Of a stretch of 6,628 bases of DNA, positions 1-6,628 are shown piece by piece. The position numbers and the translations under genes were made by a program. Position 1 is the first letter of the stretch. Each line of letters starts with the position of its first letter. The stretch comes from Chloroflexota bacterium (GTDB lineage: Bacteria; Chloroflexota; Anaerolineae; UBA1429), in contig JAAZBY010000202.1 of NCBI GenBank assembly GCA_012513595.1, positions 1 to 6,628 of the forward strand. Direction: 5' to 3'. Under the pieces are notes generated by a model that saw nothing but the letters and a program-made list of their open reading frames with translations, was not told where the DNA came from and made no database searches.

Positions 1-598
1 CCTGATCCAAACGAACATCGACAACCTGGCCGGCGTGCCGTCCATCATCTATGGGATGCTGGGCCTGGCTGTCTTTGTGCGCAGCCTGGAACGCGTCACT
101 AGCGGGGCGCTCTTTGGCCTGGGCGGCCCCTCGCAGAACGGGCGCACGGTGCTCTCTGCGGGGCTGACGTTGGGGCTTCTCGTGCTGCCCGTGGTGATCA
201 TCAACGCGCAGGAGGCCATCCGCGCGGTGCCCCGCTCGCTGCGCCAGGCTAGCCTGGGGTTGGGGGCCACCCGCTGGCAGACGATATGGCATCACGTGCT
301 TCCAGCCGCCCTGCCCGGCATCCTGACGGGCAGCATTCTGGCCATCTCGCGAGCCCTCGGCGAGACTGCCCCCCTGGTGGTGGTGGGCGCCTCGACGTTC
401 ATCGCCGTAGACCCCAGCGGCCCCTTTAGCAAGTTCACCACGCTACCGATCCAGATCTACCAGTGGACGGCGCGTCCGCAGGGGGCCTTCCGCAACATCG
501 CCGCGGCGGCCATCCTCGTTCTGCTGGCCATGCTACTGATCCTCAACGCCGCCGCAGTGATCCTACGCCACCGCGCTAGCAGGAGAACCCGAACGTGA
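1..598 (+). CDS. pstA: Phosphate ABC transporter permease PstA, 3' part
   Basis: Inner-membrane permease subunit of the high-affinity phosphate importer PstSCAB; it pairs with PstC and is driven by PstB. The frame is open from base 2, giving about 198 residues before the TGA at 596-598. PstA is usually about 280-300 residues, so roughly the first third lies outside the window. Visible hallmarks are the [11 protein letters not shown] segment near the left edge (shared by PstA and PstC), the cytoplasmic EAA loop ([20 protein letters not shown], then a [11 protein letters not shown] stretch) that docks on the ATPase, and the [14 protein letters not shown] segment typical of PstA. Hydrophobic segments flank these, and the tail is basic ([10 protein letters not shown]). 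The stop overlaps the pstB start in GTGA, indicating translational coupling. An apparent ATG at 35 is internal, because the conserved NLAGVP motif is encoded upstream of it. The identification is firm; only the 5' end is missing. Confidence 0.95.
581..587 (+). promoter_or_regulatory. Ribosome binding site of pstB
   Basis: AGGAGAA lies inside the last codons of pstA, 7 bases before the GTG at 595. It supports the GTG start with its 4-base overlap over the in-frame ATG at 604, which would sit too far from it. Confidence 0.7.
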
Positions 599-1431
599 CG
601 ACAATGGCATCTACGACCGCTACACTGACAGCCCGGGCCGTGCCTGTGGCCGTGGCCGCCGCCGGCGGCGACCCGGCGGTGGAGACGCGCGACCTCTCGA
701 TCTACTATGGCTCCTTTCGCGCCGTGCGCGGCGTGAACCTGCGCATCCCGCCCCGCAAGGTGACGGCGATCATCGGGCCGTCAGGGTGTGGCAAGAGCAC
801 CCTGCTCCGCTCGCTCAATCGCATGAACGAGACCCTCGGCGACAGCCACGTAACGGGAGAGGTCTACTTCCACGGCCAGAGCATCTATGGCGCGGACGTC
901 GACCCGGTGCAGCTGCGCCGGCGGATCGGCATGGTCTTCCAAAGGCCCAACCCGTTCCCGAAGAGTATCTATGAGAACGTAGCTTGGGGTGCACGAGTGA
1001 ACGGTTATCGGGGAGATATGAACGCCCATGTTGAGCGGTGCCTGCGCGATGCCGCCCTGTGGGACGAGGTCAAGGACAACCTGGCCAAGTCGGCCCTGGC
1101 GCTTTCCGGGGGACAGCAGCAGCGCCTGTGTATCGCCCGGGCCATTGCCGTGCGCCCCGAGGTGATCCTGATGGACGAGCCGGCCTCGGCGCTGGATCCG
1201 GTGGCCACGCTGAGGATCGAGGAGCTGATCCAGGCGCTCAAGCGGGAGTATGCCATCGTCATCGTCACGCACAACATGCAGCAGGCTGCCCGCGTGTCAG
1301 ACTACACGGCCTTTCTGACCATGGATGCTCAGAGGGCGGGCTACTTGGTGGAACACGGGCCCACTCGCGAGGTGTTCACCAATCCCAGGCAGCAGATCAC
1401 CGAGGACTATATCACCGGGCGGTTTGGCTGA
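595..1431 (+). CDS. pstB: Phosphate ABC transporter ATP-binding protein PstB
   Basis: Cytoplasmic ATPase that powers phosphate import through PstA/PstC. The 278 residues contain the full nucleotide-binding domain: Walker [10 protein letters not shown] (61-69), Q-loop Gln116 in [13 protein letters not shown] signature LSGGQQQR (170-177), Walker B VILMDEP (190-196), D-loop SALD (198-201) and switch His226 in VTHNMQQ. The pairing of the VFQRPNPFP segment with the [13 protein letters not shown] signature and the DYITGRFG end is characteristic of PstB rather than of other ABC ATPases. The GTG start overlaps the pstA stop and has a good ribosome binding site. About 29 N-terminal residues before the conserved [10 protein letters not shown] are Ala/Thr/Val-rich and of low complexity, which makes the protein a little longer than the usual 250-260 residues. 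No phoU follows; the next gene is convergent, with 31 bases between the stops. Such operons are normally phosphate-regulated, but the promoter is outside the window. Confidence 0.97.
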
Positions 1432-1462: not shown

Positions 1463-3040
1463 TCAGGTGAGTTGGCAGGGCCTGCCGCGGCCGAGGACCA
1501 TGGCCTCATAGGCTCGACGCGTCTTGTCATAATCCCCGTCGCGGTCCAGCGCAAGCCCACGCCCCACGGCCGAGGCCACCTGCCCGAGCCCGATCTCCGC
1601 TAGGCGCGCGTCGAGGGCGGCCAGCATCGCTGGCGCGCTGCCCGGCGCGGTGCTGCGGCCATCCAGAATCAGGTGCAGCCAGGCGCGCCGCACGCCGGCC
1701 TCCCGGGCCATCCGCAGGATCGCCAAGGGGTAGGCGATCGACCCGTGCGAGCTCCTCTCGGAGAGCAGGCCGAGCAGGTGTAGCGCCGCGCCACGCCGGC
1801 GCACGCCGTCGAGGGCACTGCGGAGGACGGGGTTGGCCGCGAAGGAACCGTCCTGCAGGGCCTGGTCCAGGCGGACGTCGTCCTGTACCACCACGCGCCC
1901 TGCGCCGATGTTCAGGTGGCCGGCCTCGGAGTTGCCCGGCTTGCCCGCCTCCAGCCCCACAGCAGGGCCGGCGGCAAGCAGCCGCGTGTGCGGGTGGTGG
2001 GCCAGAAGGCCGTCCCAGACCGGCGTCGAGGCCAGATGGATGGGGTTGCCTTCATCGGCCGCCCCGCAGCCCCACCCGTCCAGGATGAGGAGGAGCATGC
2101 GGCGCGCCCCCCAGGCGTGCCCGGGGGCCAGGGTGCGCCCCGTCATGGCCGCCGGCACCGCCAAGCCCAGCGCATGGAGCACCGTGGGGGCCACGTCTGC
2201 AAGGGAGCCCGACACCAGCAGGGCGGGCGCCGGCGCACGCGCGTCGATGAGCACCAACGGCACCGGGCTGGCCGTGTGGGCCACGTGCGGCCCGCCGTCC
2301 GGACGGGCCATGACCTCCAAGTTGCCATGATCGGCGGTGACGAGGACGACGTAGCCCGCCGCGACGGCGGCGCCAACCATGCGCCCGAGGTGCCGGTCTA
2401 TCGCGGCAGCGCAGGCGATCTTGCCGGGGTGGCTGGCGGTGTGGCCGATGACGTCGCCATTGGCCACGTTGGCGGCGATCAGGGCGTAGCCCTCCTGCAG
2501 CCCGGCGATGACGCGGTCGGCCACTAGTGGCAGGCTCATCTCCGGGGTGTCTTCCCAGGCGACCCCGTGCAGCGAGGGCACGCGCACGTCGTCTTGGCCT
2601 GGGAAGGGCTGGGCGCGGCAGCCGTTCAGAAAGTAGGTGATGTGCGCCGCCTTTTCGGACTCGGCGACGCGCAACTGCCGCAGCCCAGCGCGGCTGACGA
2701 CTTCCCCAAGTGTCTCGCCCACCTCAGCAGGGGCAAAGGCCACCGGCAGGTGCACGAACTTGTCGTGGTACAGCGTGAGAATCACGAAAGTGAGGTCGCG
2801 GAGGGCGCGGCGCGGAAAGTGGCGGAAGCCCGGCTCTACGAAGGCCTCGGTGAGCTGGACCTCACGCTCGCCGCGCCGGCAGCAGAACACCACGGCATCG
2901 CCATCGCGGACTGGGCCGACGGGCGCGCCCCGCCCGTCTACAAGGACGAGCGGCTCCATGCCATAGTCGGACTGGCCGGCGGCGTACGCCGCCCTGACGG
3001 CTTGCGCCAGGGCCGCCCCGCCGCCCGCCAGGCTAGCCAT
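1463..3040 (-). CDS. gpmI: Circularly permuted cofactor-independent phosphoglycerate mutase
   Basis: Family role: interconverts 3- and 2-phosphoglycerate in glycolysis using two metal ions and a phosphoserine intermediate. The 525 residues match the usual total length of about 510, but the two halves are swapped. Residues 1-308 correspond to the canonical C-terminal part: Arg56 and Arg59 (the R..R pair of FRxDRxRQ), Lys130 in AESEK, Asp196 and His200 in NGDVIGH, Asp237-His238 in TADHGN, His252/His255 in PHVAHT, and the usual end SLADVAPTVLHALGL...MTGRTL. A linker of about ten residues follows. Residues 315-525 are the canonical N-terminal part: Asp321 in LILDGWG, phosphorylatable Ser371 in GNSEAGHLNIGAGR, His432, Arg462, Arg494 and Arg500 in GRGLALDRD. 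The frame is unbroken throughout. The ATG overlaps the stop of the upstream HAD gene by 8 bases (ATGGCTAG), so translation is probably coupled; a GGGG just upstream is only a weak ribosome binding site. The Asp of the conserved DGRD motif is Ser463 here. Family membership is firm. Phosphoglycerate mutase activity is inferred, and a divergent phosphomutase or phosphatase is possible. Confidence 0.9.
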   Translation of the reverse strand: MASLAGGGAALAQAVRAAYAAGQSDYGMEPLVLVDGRGAPVGPVRDGDAVVFCCRRGEREVQLTEAFVEPGFRHFPRRALRDLTFVILTLYHDKFVHLPVAFAPAEVGETLGEVVSRAGLRQLRVAESEKAAHITYFLNGCRAQPFPGQDDVRVPSLHGVAWEDTPEMSLPLVADRVIAGLQEGYALIAANVANGDVIGHTASHPGKIACAAAIDRHLGRMVGAAVAAGYVVLVTADHGNLEVMARPDGGPHVAHTASPVPLVLIDARAPAPALLVSGSLADVAPTVLHALGLAVPAAMTGRTLAPGHAWGARRMLLLILDGWGCGAADEGNPIHLASTPVWDGLLAHHPHTRLLAAGPAVGLEAGKPGNSEAGHLNIGAGRVVVQDDVRLDQALQDGSFAANPVLRSALDGVRRRGAALHLLGLLSERSSHGSIAYPLAILRMAREAGVRRAWLHLILDGRSTAPGSAPAMLAALDARLAEIGLGQVASAVGRGLALDRDGDYDKTRRAYEAMVLGRGRPCQLT

Positions 3041-3770
3041 CGCCCCGACGCGACGGGAAGAGGTCCAGGAGCTCGGAGAAGTTGCGGATCACCGCGTCGG
3101 GCGGGTAAGGGGCCTGGCGCGCGACGTCGTAATCCTCGGGTTCGAGGAGGAGGACGACCGCGCCCCAGCCCGCTTTGCGCGCGCCCTCGACGTCGCGGAT
3201 GGGGTTGTCTCCCACATAGGCGCAACACTGCGGGGCCACGCCGGCCTCGCGCGCGGCGTATTGGTAGATGTCGGCCCCTGGCTTGCGCAGGCCGATGACC
3301 GCCGAAAGGACCACCGGCGAAAAGTGCTGGCCCAGGCCGTCGTCCTCCAGCCAGTTGGGGATCTCACGCTCAGTGATGGTGTTCGAGAGGATGCCGAGGC
3401 GGTAACCCCGGGCGATCAGCCCTTCGACGACGGCCCTGGCCTCGGGGCGCGCCTCGCGGCGGCCCATGGTCTGGCGATAGGCATAGGTGAGCTCGCCGGC
3501 CCGTGGGGCGACCTGGTCGTAGGGATGGTCGGGTAGCAGCCACTTGGTCCAGAGTTCGCACTCGGTCGCCTCAGAGAGGGTCTCAAAGGCCCACTTGCGG
3601 TAGGCCTTGTAGCGCTCGTCGAGCAGGGCGCAGAACGCCGCGGGGGGCGCGGTAGCGCCGACCAGGGCGGTGATCCGTTCCCTGGCCCGGGCCTGGTAGG
3701 CCTCGTCGGGGTGGGTCACGCGCAGCGTGTTGCCCACGTCGATAAAGATCACCTCTATGCGATGGTCCAT
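3033..3770 (-). CDS. HAD-superfamily hydrolase (probable phosphatase)
   Basis: Cytoplasmic haloacid-dehalogenase-fold enzyme; most relatives hydrolyse small phosphate esters through an aspartyl-phosphate. From the ATG at 3770 it has 245 residues. Motif I is FIDVGNTL with nucleophile Asp11, but the second, acid/base Asp of the usual DxD is Gly13. Motif II is LGILSNT (Ser129), motif III is Lys163 in GLRKPG, and motif IV is YVGDNPIRD (Asp188, Asp193). A helical cap insert lies between motifs I and II (about 20-105), as in subclass I members such as phosphoglycolate phosphatase and dehalogenases. The frame also stays open to a GTG at 3839, but the ATG at 3770 is preferred: it has AAAGG 8 bases upstream and places motif I ten residues from the start, as is typical. 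The last 8 bases overlap the mutase gene, linking the two enzymes. It follows the binding-protein gene after a 97-base gap holding a hairpin. The substrate is unknown; it does not resemble phosphonoacetaldehyde hydrolase (no DWAGT motif I). Confidence 0.87.
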   Translation of the reverse strand: MDHRIEVIFIDVGNTLRVTHPDEAYQARARERITALVGATAPPAAFCALLDERYKAYRKWAFETLSEATECELWTKWLLPDHPYDQVAPRAGELTYAYRQTMGRREARPEARAVVEGLIARGYRLGILSNTITEREIPNWLEDDGLGQHFSPVVLSAVIGLRKPGADIYQYAAREAGVAPQCCAYVGDNPIRDVEGARKAGWGAVVLLLEPEDYDVARQAPYPPDAVIRNFSELLDLFPSRRGDG

Positions 3771-3772
3771 AT

Positions 3773-3783
3773 CCTCAGCCTTT
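3773..3783 (-). promoter_or_regulatory. Ribosome binding site region of the HAD hydrolase gene
   Basis: On the - strand, AAAGG (3783-3779) lies 8 bases before the ATG at 3770, with a second GAGG (3776-3773) closer to it. This decides the start: the alternative GTG at 3839 falls within the hairpin region at 3826-3854 and would add 23 Pro-rich residues in front of motif I. Confidence 0.6.
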
Positions 3784-3825
3784 CGCAGATAAAGCAGGGT
3801 CTCGGGCCGCACCGGAGGGAAAGGC

Positions 3826-3854
3826 GGGGACGCGGCCACGTGCGCCGCGCCCCC
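3826..3854 (-). terminator. Strong intergenic hairpin after the binding-protein gene
   Basis: On the - strand GGGGGCGCGGC pairs with GCCGCGTCCCC around the loop GCACGTG. That is 11 pairs, ten Watson-Crick plus one G.U. It starts 13 bases after the stop of the binding-protein gene and ends 55 bases before the HAD start. Only a short pyrimidine run with three T (GCCTTTCCCTC) follows, so it is not a textbook intrinsic terminator. It could be a partial terminator that lowers expression of the two enzymes relative to the transporter, or a 3' stabiliser of the transporter mRNA. On the + strand the same stem has an A.C mismatch, so it is better suited to the leftward transcript. Confidence 0.5.
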
Positions 3855-3867
3855 TGGGTTGGCGGGG

Positions 3868-5073
3868 TCACTGGCTCAGGAAGTTCACCGTCCAAAAGTC
3901 GCGCATCTTGCTGATGTTCTGGTAGACAAAGAGATCGTCCTGCGACCAGACGTCCAGCTCCTCACGCGGGATAGAGTCCTCGGGGGCGGGGATGTCGGTG
4001 CGCGCCGAGTAGTTCCCGATGACGTTCCAGGGCTCGTTCCCCTCGTTCAGGACAAAGTTGATGAACAGCTTGGCCGCGTTGGGATGCGCGGCGCGGTTGA
4101 TCACGGCCAGGTAGGCCTGCGTCTGCACGCCGATCACCGGGTCAAGCCCCATGCAGGCGTCAAACACGACCTCGCCCTTGAGCGTGCGGCGGTACTTGGA
4201 GTAGGAGGTAAAGCCCACGCCTGCCTCGGTCATGCCCGGGGTGGCAAAGCCCTCCACGGCCTCATCCCCGCCGGGCACCGGCACCGGCGCGTTCTGCGCA
4301 AAGCGCTTGACCCACAGCCAGCCGGCGTCGGGGGTGTCGCCGTCGAGAACCGGGTCACTGCCATAGTAGGCCTTGTAGGCGGCGGCCAGCTCCTCGGTGT
4401 TTGAGGCGATGGTCGTCAGGATCCCCATCGTGCTGGCGTCGGTCAGGGGGTCTTCGATGAAGACCTTGCCCTTCCACTCCGGCTCGGTCATCTCCCACCA
4501 GTTCGTGATCGGGCAGCCAGCGGGGTTCAGTTCGCTATTGTAGCCCACCACGCGGACGCCATAGCGAGAGACGACCAGCGGGTTGCGCGCCTCCGCGGGG
4601 ATGACGTCCAGCAGGTCGTCGGGGACGAACGGCACGAGGTAGCCCTTGGGCAGCAGGTCGCCAAAGATGTCGGGGCCGCCGCCGGAGAACCAGACGTCGC
4701 CGACGTAGGCGCCGGCCTTTTGCTCCTCACGCACCTTGATGACCGCATCGTCACCGCCGAGGTCAAAGCCCTCCACGGTGATCTCCGGGTACTTGGCCAT
4801 GAAGGCGGCCGCGGCGTCCTCGATGCGAGACGAGTTGGCGTAGACGAGCACCTTGCCCTCGGCCTTGGCGGCGGCCTCGATGGCCGCCCAGTCCTGCTTG
4901 GCGGGGGCGTACTGCCCCAGCTCTGCGCCCTTGAGCCACTCCTCGTCGGCGCTCAGCGCCGGGCTGGCCTCGCCGCCCGCGGCGGGCGCGCCCGTACCGG
5001 GCGCGGGGGCGACGCAGCCGGCCAAGAGGCAGACCAGCAGGCACAATATGCACAGCGAGCGTGACGGTCTCAT
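3868..5073 (-). CDS. ABC transporter substrate-binding lipoprotein (ferric/sugar-phosphate type)
   Basis: Extracytoplasmic receptor that delivers ligand to the permease encoded upstream. From the ATG at 5073 it has 401 residues. A signal peptide with basic start MRPSR and core LCILCLLVCLL ends in lipobox LAGC, predicting lipidation on Cys20. An Ala/Pro/Gly-rich tether (21-40) follows. The mature domain opens with DWAAIEAAAKAEGKVLVYAN (61-80), then DVWFSGGGPDIFGDL (126-140), GVRVVGYNSEL (172-182) and WWEMTEPEWKGKV (192-203). This order is that of the binding-protein group containing FbpA-like ferric and AfuA-like hexose-phosphate receptors. The adjacent Tyr pair used for iron by FbpA-type proteins is not evident; the comparable region reads GFTSYSKYRR (287-296). 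The frame extends upstream to 5223, but the signal peptide and a strong ribosome binding site fix the start at 5073. It is third in the operon after permease and ATPase, with 124 bases to the ATPase stop. The class is firm; the ligand is unknown. Confidence 0.9.
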   Translation of the reverse strand: MRPSRSLCILCLLVCLLAGCVAPAPGTGAPAAGGEASPALSADEEWLKGAELGQYAPAKQDWAAIEAAAKAEGKVLVYANSSRIEDAAAAFMAKYPEITVEGFDLGGDDAVIKVREEQKAGAYVGDVWFSGGGPDIFGDLLPKGYLVPFVPDDLLDVIPAEARNPLVVSRYGVRVVGYNSELNPAGCPITNWWEMTEPEWKGKVFIEDPLTDASTMGILTTIASNTEELAAAYKAYYGSDPVLDGDTPDAGWLWVKRFAQNAPVPVPGGDEAVEGFATPGMTEAGVGFTSYSKYRRTLKGEVVFDACMGLDPVIGVQTQAYLAVINRAAHPNAAKLFINFVLNEGNEPWNVIGNYSARTDIPAPEDSIPREELDVWSQDDLFVYQNISKMRDFWTVNFLSQ

Positions 5074-5078
5074 GGTTT

Positions 5079-5085
5079 CCTCCCT
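5079..5085 (-). promoter_or_regulatory. Ribosome binding site of the substrate-binding protein gene
   Basis: AGGGAGG on the - strand ends 5 bases before the ATG at 5073 and is the best such site in the leftward operon. It fits the need to make more binding protein than membrane subunits. The remaining 124-base gap (5074-5197) shows no convincing promoter; it holds a small inverted repeat, GCGC-att-GCGC, at 5129-5139. Confidence 0.75.
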
Positions 5086-5197
5086 GGTGTCCTGTGTCGG
5101 TGCCGAAGCCACTATCGACGACGCTGCCGCGCATTGCGCTTGCTGCGGACCACCTCCTCTCCCCTGCGGGCCCGTGCCCTGCCGCCGTGGCCGGCTA

Positions 5198-6283
5198 CTA
5201 GAACGGTGCCACCAGGTTGCCACTGTCGGCGTCGTACAGGTTGAGCATCTCGGTACGGAAGGTCAGCCAGATTCTGTCATCCATAGCGATCTCGCTGATG
5301 CCGGCTTCCTTGGCTGTGATCTCCAGGCCGTTGTGGTGGGCCACGATGGTCGTGTCGGCGCCGGCCGGCAGCACCGAGTAGGCGACGAACTCGGGCGCCC
5401 CGGCCACCGGCTCCCGTGAGATGGCCACGTCTTCAGGGCGCACGGCCACGACGACCTCTCCGCTGGCGCCGTGGGTGGGCACTTGAACGCTAAAGTGGCC
5501 GAGGTCCACGACTCCCTCGCTGGCCACGCGCCCCCGCAGCAGGTTGATCTTGGGGTTGCCCACAAAGTCCGCCACGAAAAGGTTGGCCGGGGTGCGGTAG
5601 ACGGCGTCGGGCGCGTCGACCTGCTGCAGGACTCCCTCCTTCATCACGGCGATCGACGTCGACATGGTCAGGGCCTCGACCTGGTCGTGGGTCACATAGA
5701 TCGTCGTGGCGCCGGCCAGGCGATGCAGCCGCTTGAGCTCGCCGCGCATGTCCATGCGCAGGCGCGCGTCCAGGTTGGAGAGGGGCTCGTCCATCAGGAA
5801 GACCTTCGGCCGGTAGGCCAACATGCGGGCCAGGGCGATGCGCTGCTGCTGCCCGCCGCTCATTTCGCGCGGGTAGCGCCCCTCATAGCCCTCCATCTTG
5901 ACCTCGGCAAGGGATTCTTGGACACGGCGCTCCATTTCCGCCTTGGGCACTTTCTGGATCTCCAGAGCGAAGGTCATGTTCTTGTACACGGTCATATGGG
6001 GCCAGAGGGCATAGTTCTGAAAGACGAGCCCCAGATCCCTCTTGCCGGCGGGTAGGGAGATGCCCTGGTCGTAGGAGAAGACCAGCTTGTCGCCGATCAG
6101 GATCTCACCGGCATCAGGTTCCTCGAGGCCGGCCACGCAGCGCAGCAGTGTCGTCTTGCCGCAGCCCGAGGGGCCCAGCAGGGTGAGGAAGGCGCCCGGC
6201 GCGATGGTGAGGCTGACGTCGTCGACGGCGACCACGTCTCCGAACCGCTTGGTGAGGTGGCTGATGGTGATCTCTGTGGCCAT
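5198..6283 (-). CDS. ABC transporter ATP-binding protein with C-terminal TOBE-type domain
   Basis: Cytoplasmic ATPase of the importer encoded by its neighbours. With the ATG at 6283 it has 361 residues. It carries Walker A GPSGCGKTT (37-45), Q-loop Gln89 in LVFQNYALWPHMTV, signature MSGGQQQR (141-148), Walker B VFLMDEP (161-167), D-loop SNLD (169-172) and switch His199 in VTHDQVEA. After FVGNPKINLL (240-249) comes a regulatory domain of about 110 residues with VAVRPEDV (279-286), as in the MalK/UgpC/PotA/FbpC group. Length and the GNPKIN segment are most like the sugar and glycerol-phosphate ATPases. A GTG at 6298 would overlap the permease stop as GTGA and add five residues (MKRGD). The ATG is preferred for its family-typical MATEITISHLTKRFG start and the GAGGGG just before it, though the choice is not certain. 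The permease stop lies 11 bases upstream of this ATG. Confidence 0.93.
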   Translation of the reverse strand: MATEITISHLTKRFGDVVAVDDVSLTIAPGAFLTLLGPSGCGKTTLLRCVAGLEEPDAGEILIGDKLVFSYDQGISLPAGKRDLGLVFQNYALWPHMTVYKNMTFALEIQKVPKAEMERRVQESLAEVKMEGYEGRYPREMSGGQQQRIALARMLAYRPKVFLMDEPLSNLDARLRMDMRGELKRLHRLAGATTIYVTHDQVEALTMSTSIAVMKEGVLQQVDAPDAVYRTPANLFVADFVGNPKINLLRGRVASEGVVDLGHFSVQVPTHGASGEVVVAVRPEDVAISREPVAGAPEFVAYSVLPAGADTTIVAHHNGLEITAKEAGISEIAMDDRIWLTFRTEMLNLYDADSGNLVAPF

Positions 6284-6294
6284 ATCCCCTCGCT

Positions 6295-6628
6295 TCACAT
6301 CCCTAGGCCTCGCCTGAGACTGCCGCCGCGGAACCTGCCGATCACCAGGTTGCCGACGAGCACCAGGGTGACCAGGATGAGGACCACGGCGTTGGCCATT
6401 TGTTCGTCGCCGTTCTCGGTGTAGCGCATCGTCTGGCTGGCCAAGACCTGCGTGGAAGGCGTCACCAGCAGGATGATCAGCGAGAGCTCGCGCATGGTGG
6501 TGATAAAAGTCAACAGAAAGCCGGAGACAAAGCCGGCGCTGGTCAGTGGAAAGATGATGCGGCGGAAGCGCTGCCAGAGCGCAGCCCCGGCCACCTGGCC
6601 GGCCTCCTCCAGTTCGCGGCCCACCTGC
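6295..6628 (-). CDS. ABC transporter permease, 3' part (FbpB/AfuB-like)
   Basis: C-terminal end of an inner-membrane permease; the frame is open to the right edge, so the 5' part is missing. About 110 residues are visible. They begin with the EAA loop (RELEEAGQVAGAALWQRFRR followed by IIFPL) that contacts the ATPase. A membrane segment (SAGFVSGFLLTFITT), the TMRELSLIILLVTP stretch resembling the T-ELP-TLLL-P segment of ferric-type permeases, and a last membrane helix (MANAVVLILVTLVLVGNLVIG) follow. It ends in a basic tail, RFRGGSLRRGLGM. Its TGA is at 6295-6297, immediately before the ATPase gene, so the two are probably co-transcribed. Ferric-type transporters often have one double-length permease with two EAA loops, or two separate permeases. 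The window cannot show which applies. Confidence 0.88.
   Translation of the reverse strand, partial: QVGRELEEAGQVAGAALWQRFRRIIFPLTSAGFVSGFLLTFITTMRELSLIILLVTPSTQVLASQTMRYTENGDEQMANAVVLILVTLVLVGNLVIGRFRGGSLRRGLGM

Follow-up and report, generated by a model that had tools for sequence, protein, structure and literature searches.

A natural circular permutation of the phosphoglycerate mutase iPGM in Chloroflexota and Bacillota, with a probable change of function

A mutase-type gene with its segments in reversed order

The window analysed here is a whole stretch of 6,628 nucleotides from a Chloroflexota bacterium (assembly GCA_012513595.1, contig JAAZBY010000202.1). Its minus strand carries an unbroken frame of 525 codons (3040..1463) which encodes a protein of the type of cofactor-independent phosphoglycerate mutase (iPGM, GpmI) with the two halves of the enzyme in swapped order. 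A plus-strand reading of 1463..3040 was rejected because the translated frame contains stops. iPGM is a textbook enzyme, and its canonical chain runs from the N-terminal part of the phosphatase domain through the transferase domain to the C-terminal part of the phosphatase domain. We take the bounds to be residues 1–76 and 311–510 for the phosphatase and about 77–310 for the transferase domain, and assigned the segments of the permuted protein as follows.

1463..3040, minus strand: circularly permuted iPGM-type protein, 525 amino acids (reading frame, Pfam, phmmer)
2732..3040, minus strand: residues 1–103, second half of the transferase domain (canonical about 216–310), now N-terminal (1ejj alignment, assumed bounds)
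within 2732..3040, minus strand: R261/R264-type arginines in CCRRGER of residues 1–103 (1ejj alignment)
1886..2731, minus strand: residues 104–385, contiguous phosphatase domain (canonical 311–510, then 1–76; 1ejj alignment, PF01676 at 103–293, assumed bounds)
2099..2128, minus strand: residues 305–314, linker from the old C-terminus to the old N-terminus (gap between the two 1ejj-matched stretches)
1466..1885, minus strand: residues 386–525, first half of the transferase domain (canonical about 77–212), now C-terminal (Pfam, 1ejj alignment, assumed bounds)
1928..1930, minus strand: Ser371, equivalent of the nucleophile Ser62 in GNSEAGH (alignment)
1652..1654, minus strand: Ser463 at the canonical Asp154 position, LDGRD to LDGRS (alignment)

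The best Pfam stretches of the protein were Metalloenzyme (PF01676, residues 103–293) followed by iPGM_N (PF06415, 392–520), the reverse of the canonical order, and the ApgM domain PF10143 was not found in it (E ≤ 0.001). Comparison with PDB sequences by phmmer aligned residues 15–304 with 220–508 of 1ejj (E 5.6e-56) and residues 315–520 with 6–211 (E 8.9e-48), and the swap is visible in all three alignments displayed. Twelve distinct PDB sequences were matched. Eleven are named phosphoglycerate mutases, every one matched in two stretches, and the twelfth, the phosphonate monoester hydrolase 4upk, gave a single weak match; none of the twelve indicated a solved permuted structure. A preliminary description of this DNA, which named no strand, had placed the C-terminal iPGM motifs ahead of the N-terminal ones in the 525-codon frame and had derived a contiguous phosphatase domain (about 105–385) within a split transferase domain. 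Both statements agree with the Pfam result, the assumed bounds and the separate alignment of the two pieces to 1ejj, which match in swapped order. The linker measures 10–11 residues in 93 of the 101 subfamily-1 proteins (see below) that could be measured by pattern among 120 listed, the other eight giving a spurious value of 311.

The search with the window protein returned 7636 matches, of which the best 120 were 61–100% identical over 95–100% of the query with one local alignment each, and a script check found the permuted order in 120/120 of these relatives. A genome scan covering one genome per species in 84,980 species yielded 303 pattern stretches, of which 235 were confirmed and the best 80 kept; all 80 kept loci are permuted. 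The scan relied on two peptide patterns characteristic of subfamily 1 and therefore represents subfamily 2 and more distant forms poorly. The kept loci include records titled as strains, namely Levilinea saccharolytica KIBI-1, Oscillibacter valericigenes An860 and An411 and Butyricicoccus pullicaecorum ET57, and one record titled chromosome (CP070811), which derives from a metagenome-assembled genome (MAG). One permuted protein in the collection (P0103) is named as originating from a Bacteroidota MAG, which may reflect contamination or transfer.

Chance is excluded as the source of the swapped order, since 120/120 listed relatives share it. An assembly or cloning chimera could be suspected because the order was first noticed on one contig, but isolate assemblies and the chromosome record are among the 80 permuted loci and all 240 listed relatives of two queries have the same order. 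We therefore rejected this explanation, the probability of which is negligible. The circular permutation is natural and conserved in many independent assemblies, which we regard as near certain. The form as such thus stands as first described: homologues with iPGM_N after Metalloenzyme, whose lack elsewhere would have spoken against it, exist in many genomes. What had not been foreseen is the size of the family, which spans two phyla, includes a second subfamily and is shared by many gut and environmental bacteria.

The permuted proteins fall into two subfamilies, which are about 45% identical and have the same breakpoint. Subfamily 1 occurs in Anaerolineae and Clostridia; among the genomes examined, subfamily 2 was located only in Chloroflexota. 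The search with one subfamily-2 protein gave 7547 matches, the best 120 (70–93% identity) all being permuted. Thirteen further Chloroflexota loci were retrieved. Three of them (L141–L143) belong to subfamily 1 and ten (L131–L140) to subfamily 2, the latter in genomes G253, G336, G260, G405, G264, G293, G061, G268, G288 and G251.

PF06415 was matched in 41/199 genomes from the class of Levilinea: 22 are canonical, 17 show the split signature of the permuted form and two have one partial match. No canonical match stands beside the permuted signature in any of the 17; in one of these, G255, the halves lie on two contigs and the order is not shown there. Across the phylum of Levilinea, 101/201 genomes had a match, two of them permuted, one being Levilinea itself. 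The class of O. valericigenes had a match in 171/196 genomes, and the permuted signature was found in 3/150 genomes of its family. The centre genome of the class sample, that of O. valericigenes An860 (G036, locus L052), has three PF06415 matches, canonical plus permuted. Three other genomes of this class, with two matches each (G521, G548, G594), were counted neither as permuted nor as canonical.

Active-site residues and descent

According to PMC3886921, nine residues of the Bacillus stearothermophilus iPGM are in contact with phosphoglycerate: S62, H123, R153, D154, R185, R191, R261, R264 and K336. We compared the equivalent positions in 39 canonical, 83 subfamily-1 and 10 subfamily-2 sequences. 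The ligands of the two metals and the nucleophile (D12, S62, D403, H407, D444, H445, H462) are identical throughout. The set of nine contacts, by contrast, is incomplete in the permuted proteins: position 154 is aspartate in 39/39 canonical sequences, serine in 83/83 of subfamily 1 and glycine in 10/10 of subfamily 2, so that D154 is gone in 93/93 aligned permuted sequences. By pattern reading it is also replaced in all 240 listed relatives, with DGRS in 120/120 of subfamily 1 and GRRGE, in place of LDGRD, in 120/120 of subfamily 2. The latter further has ADHGT instead of ADHGN (120/120 listed). Both subfamilies have RGER where 1ejj has RPDR, and in both the pocket motif G-V-H-S is changed to S-S-H-G. 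Of 188 columns conserved in at least 85% of the canonical sequences, 117 are common to the permuted sequences, a count made for subfamily 1 only. The preliminary description had considered total length and catalytic set to be retained; the length is, but the set lacks the D154 equivalent in all permuted sequences checked.

For phylogenetic analysis the halves were joined in canonical order by script and subjected to quick IQ-TREE searches, with Shimodaira–Hasegawa-like approximate likelihood ratio (SH-aLRT) support without bootstrap, giving unrooted trees. Canonical rows came from the genomes behind the loci and from draws among Chloroflexota and Clostridia only. Thinning by identity left 86 of 119 rows in a first tree (54 permuted, 32 canonical) and 80 of 132 in a second (53 permuted, 27 canonical); L002, the frame of which looks broken near its end, is in neither. 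In both trees one branch separates the two forms (SH-aLRT 100 each). The permutation probably has a single origin, which is supported by the breakpoint and the RGER and S-S-H-G motifs common to both subfamilies, and the wide spread of the canonical order suggests that this order is ancestral. After midpoint rooting of the first tree, the 30 Bacillota rows cluster together (SH-aLRT 94) in the midst of Chloroflexota rows, which would fit a transfer from Chloroflexota to Bacillota.

Other phosphoglycerate mutases and the neighbourhood of the permuted gene

Other phosphoglycerate mutases were sought in 50 genomes (23 Chloroflexota, 27 Bacillota) behind 50 of the 80 kept loci, the completeness of the MAGs among them being unstated. 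Beside the permuted gene, canonical iPGM was found in 0/23 Chloroflexota and 22/27 Bacillota genomes. The domain PF10143 of the archaeal-type enzyme ApgM was present in 33/50 genomes, and the cofactor-dependent enzyme (dPGM, TIGR01258) exceeded its cut-off in 19/50. In 20/23 Chloroflexota genomes an ApgM gene is found no more than 6 kb from the permuted gene, and seven have one elsewhere. dPGM occurs in 1/7 Chloroflexota genomes with a stand-alone ApgM versus 15/16 without one (Fisher p 4.6e-4, kinship ignored). Because the two replace each other in this way across the 23 genomes, we suggest that stand-alone ApgM or dPGM is the housekeeping phosphoglycerate mutase of the Chloroflexota hosts; the clustered ApgM and the permuted gene look pathway-specific. 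An independent candidate (canonical iPGM, stand-alone ApgM or dPGM) is present in 46/50 genomes, for which the permuted protein is unlikely to be the sole glycolytic phosphoglycerate mutase. All eleven genomes searched for subfamily 2 (those of the ten confirmed loci and G255, which is assigned to neither subfamily) contain ApgM, and one of them has dPGM over the cut-off.

Enolase (PF00113) was not found in 19/27 Bacillota genomes with the permuted gene and was present in 14/14 controls and in 23/23 Chloroflexota. Glycolysis without a recognisable enolase is odd, and these genomes are of unchecked completeness. In the family of G036, enolase was not found in 50/150 genomes, including two of the three carriers of the permuted gene. 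A pooled test against this family gave p 4e-4, but with unmatched samples and kinship ignored, and we claim no link between the permuted gene and the missing enolase.

In the window, the permuted gene follows an ABC transporter and a hydrolase of the HAD type, in the order permease, ATPase, binding protein, HAD, permuted gene.

3033..3839, minus strand: HAD-type hydrolase just upstream of the permuted gene, 8-base overlap (Pfam, frame list)
3868..5223, minus strand: solute-binding protein of an ABC transporter, nearest solved structures being iron-binding proteins (SBP_bac_11)
5198..6298, minus strand: ATPase of an ABC transporter, closest to the models UgpC and PhnT2 without reaching their cut-offs (model search)
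6295..6627, minus strand: ABC permease, C-terminal part, cut by the window end (frame list, model search)
595..1431, plus strand: pstB, convergent, with a 31-base gap to the permuted gene and not thought part of the same operon (TIGR00972 over cut-off)

The overlap and the gap are both as first reported. A partial pstA-like permease and pstB together occupy 2–1431, convergent with the permuted gene. The best matches of the binding protein are to iron-binding proteins (2e-10), with a weak one to a pyridoxal-phosphate-binding protein (7.7e-4); naming a substrate via the transporter was therefore dropped, and no substrate is claimed.

Neighbouring genes were counted by greedy picking of open reading frames and single-linkage clustering, so the counts are rough and probably low; clusters were named by one representative each, except HAD, for which twelve frames were checked. 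The 24 Chloroflexota loci contained HAD hydrolases (22), ApgM (18), PRK/uridine-kinase-like proteins (15), RpiR regulators (15), ABC permeases (14), LacI regulators (12), ABC ATPases (6) and binding proteins (6). In the 56 other loci we found HAD (41), LacI (31), PfkB kinases (22), MgtC (14), proton pyrophosphatases (11) and ABC permeases (3). A locus can hold up to five HADs, and a HAD is fused to the permuted protein in 3/120 listed relatives. The first HAD motif reads D-x-G-[NGD]-T instead of D-x-D in those 75 of 122 cluster members in which the pattern found it (window 3033–3839 and L001–L080). The matches of these neighbours are too general to yield a function. The kinase-like cluster c5, found in 15/24 Chloroflexota loci (for example L004, 4026–5216), combines about 190 N-terminal residues without a Pfam match with a phosphoribulokinase/uridine-kinase domain.

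Function of the permuted form

The reading we favour, and consider probable, is that this natural circular permutation, likely of single origin, now acts as a pathway-specific metal-dependent phosphotransferase and not as a housekeeping glycolytic enzyme. It is based on the uniform loss of Asp154, on the presence of another phosphoglycerate mutase candidate in most host genomes and on neighbours comprising HAD hydrolases, kinases, an ApgM paralogue and a transporter. The first two points also make ‘phosphoglycerate mutase’, the function assigned in the preliminary description, doubtful. In the rearrangement, the short linker came to connect the former chain ends, both situated in the phosphatase domain, and the transferase domain was opened around canonical residues 212–216 to give the new termini. 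The phosphatase domain thus turned from host into insert, one continuous segment inside a split transferase domain, the two halves presumably still folding together. As the two-metal site and the nucleophilic serine are intact, the phosphoryl group most likely would still be moved through a phosphoserine intermediate, with another small phosphorylated compound as substrate in place of 3- and 2-phosphoglycerate. A more specific proposal is tentative: the host-to-insert change would alter the hinging and closure of the two domains and, together with the loss of D154, may have created a new activity, that of a phosphomutase or phosphotransferase acting on another small phosphorylated substrate. 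The enzyme would serve a pathway of organophosphates or sugar phosphates and would have reached gut Clostridia from Chloroflexota.

Several observations weigh against a pathway-specific phosphotransferase. Eight of the nine substrate contacts (S62, H123, R153, R185, R191, R261, R264, K336) are identical in all 132 sequences compared, so that phosphoglycerate mutase activity may persist. The window protein passes the NCBI iPGM equivalog model TIGR01307 (443 bits, cut-off 330.65), while it falls below the cut-off of the longer model NF003897 (377 versus 862). Four of the 50 genomes searched (G018, G032, G049, G050; completeness unstated) yielded no cluster-independent phosphoglycerate mutase. 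PF10143 also covers proteins that are not phosphoglycerate mutases (a proposed homoserine kinase, PhpG), the ApgM copies were counted without sorting by type, and the Fisher test treats related genomes as independent. Separation by one branch fits a common origin but, the trees being unrooted, does not establish it; likewise, iPGM structures match each half of the permuted protein taken separately, and such comparison of the halves one by one is no proof of a joint fold. The neighbours differ between the phyla, and subfamily 2 has another setting, a His_Phos_1-cluster gene adjoining it in 4/10 loci.

The retained contacts and metal ligands, the TIGR01307 score and the four genomes would fit a true phosphoglycerate mutase in which the permutation is neutral and which is redundant with the other enzymes or conditionally used. 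We consider this unlikely in view of the replacement of D154 in every permuted sequence checked (93 aligned, 240 by pattern), the SSHG pocket motif of both subfamilies, the independent candidates in 46/50 genomes and the specialised neighbourhood. Loss of the transferase-side acidic residue, clustering with HAD hydrolases, the adjoining pst genes of the window and the ABC transporter that the window and some other loci encode, with an ATPase nearest to the UgpC and PhnT2 models, could instead point to a metal-dependent phosphatase without back-transfer that frees phosphate from an imported organophosphate. Such an enzyme would hardly need the invariant transferase arginines and H123; moreover, pstB is convergent and lies outside the operon, and the nearest solved relatives of the binding protein bind iron. 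A plain phosphatase is accordingly improbable.

We found no description of a permuted iPGM in the open-access papers searched (PMC). The protein gives a known enzyme family a new topology, and its function has probably changed. It resembles canonical iPGM (1ejj, 1o98) in both domains, both metal sites, the serine nucleophile, eight of nine substrate residues and total length, and differs from it by the reversed segment order with a continuous phosphatase and a split transferase domain and by the changes of D154 to Ser or Gly, RPDR to RGER and GVHS to SSHG. Since host and insert domains are inverted in at least 240 listed proteins, and in cultured bacteria, the rearrangement offers a test of how domain connectivity shapes the domain closure needed for catalysis. 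iPGM has been put forward as a drug target in nematodes and in microbial pathogens (PMC5382265, PMC3886921). Because TIGR01307 accepts the window protein, which is probably something else, automatic reconstructions of glycolysis in Anaerolineae and gut Clostridia may err at the phosphoglycerate mutase step.

A natural circular permutation in a phosphomutase, with the loop position kept in three dimensions, is described for phosphoacetylglucosamine mutase (PGM3) in PMC5570346; PGM3 belongs to an unrelated superfamily, and about 60 residues within one domain are concerned there, as compared with about 210 across two domains in iPGM. ApgM (PF10143) shares the metalloenzyme superfamily with the permuted form but has about 400 amino acids, a different inserted domain and canonical order. 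The ApgM-like phosphonoformyl transferase PhpG (NF038358) is, by its model description, a phosphoglycerate mutase homologue recruited to another transfer reaction; unlike the permuted form it is of the ApgM type and unpermuted. In L004 the PhpG model hit the adjacent ApgM, at a score below the cut-off, and not the permuted protein.
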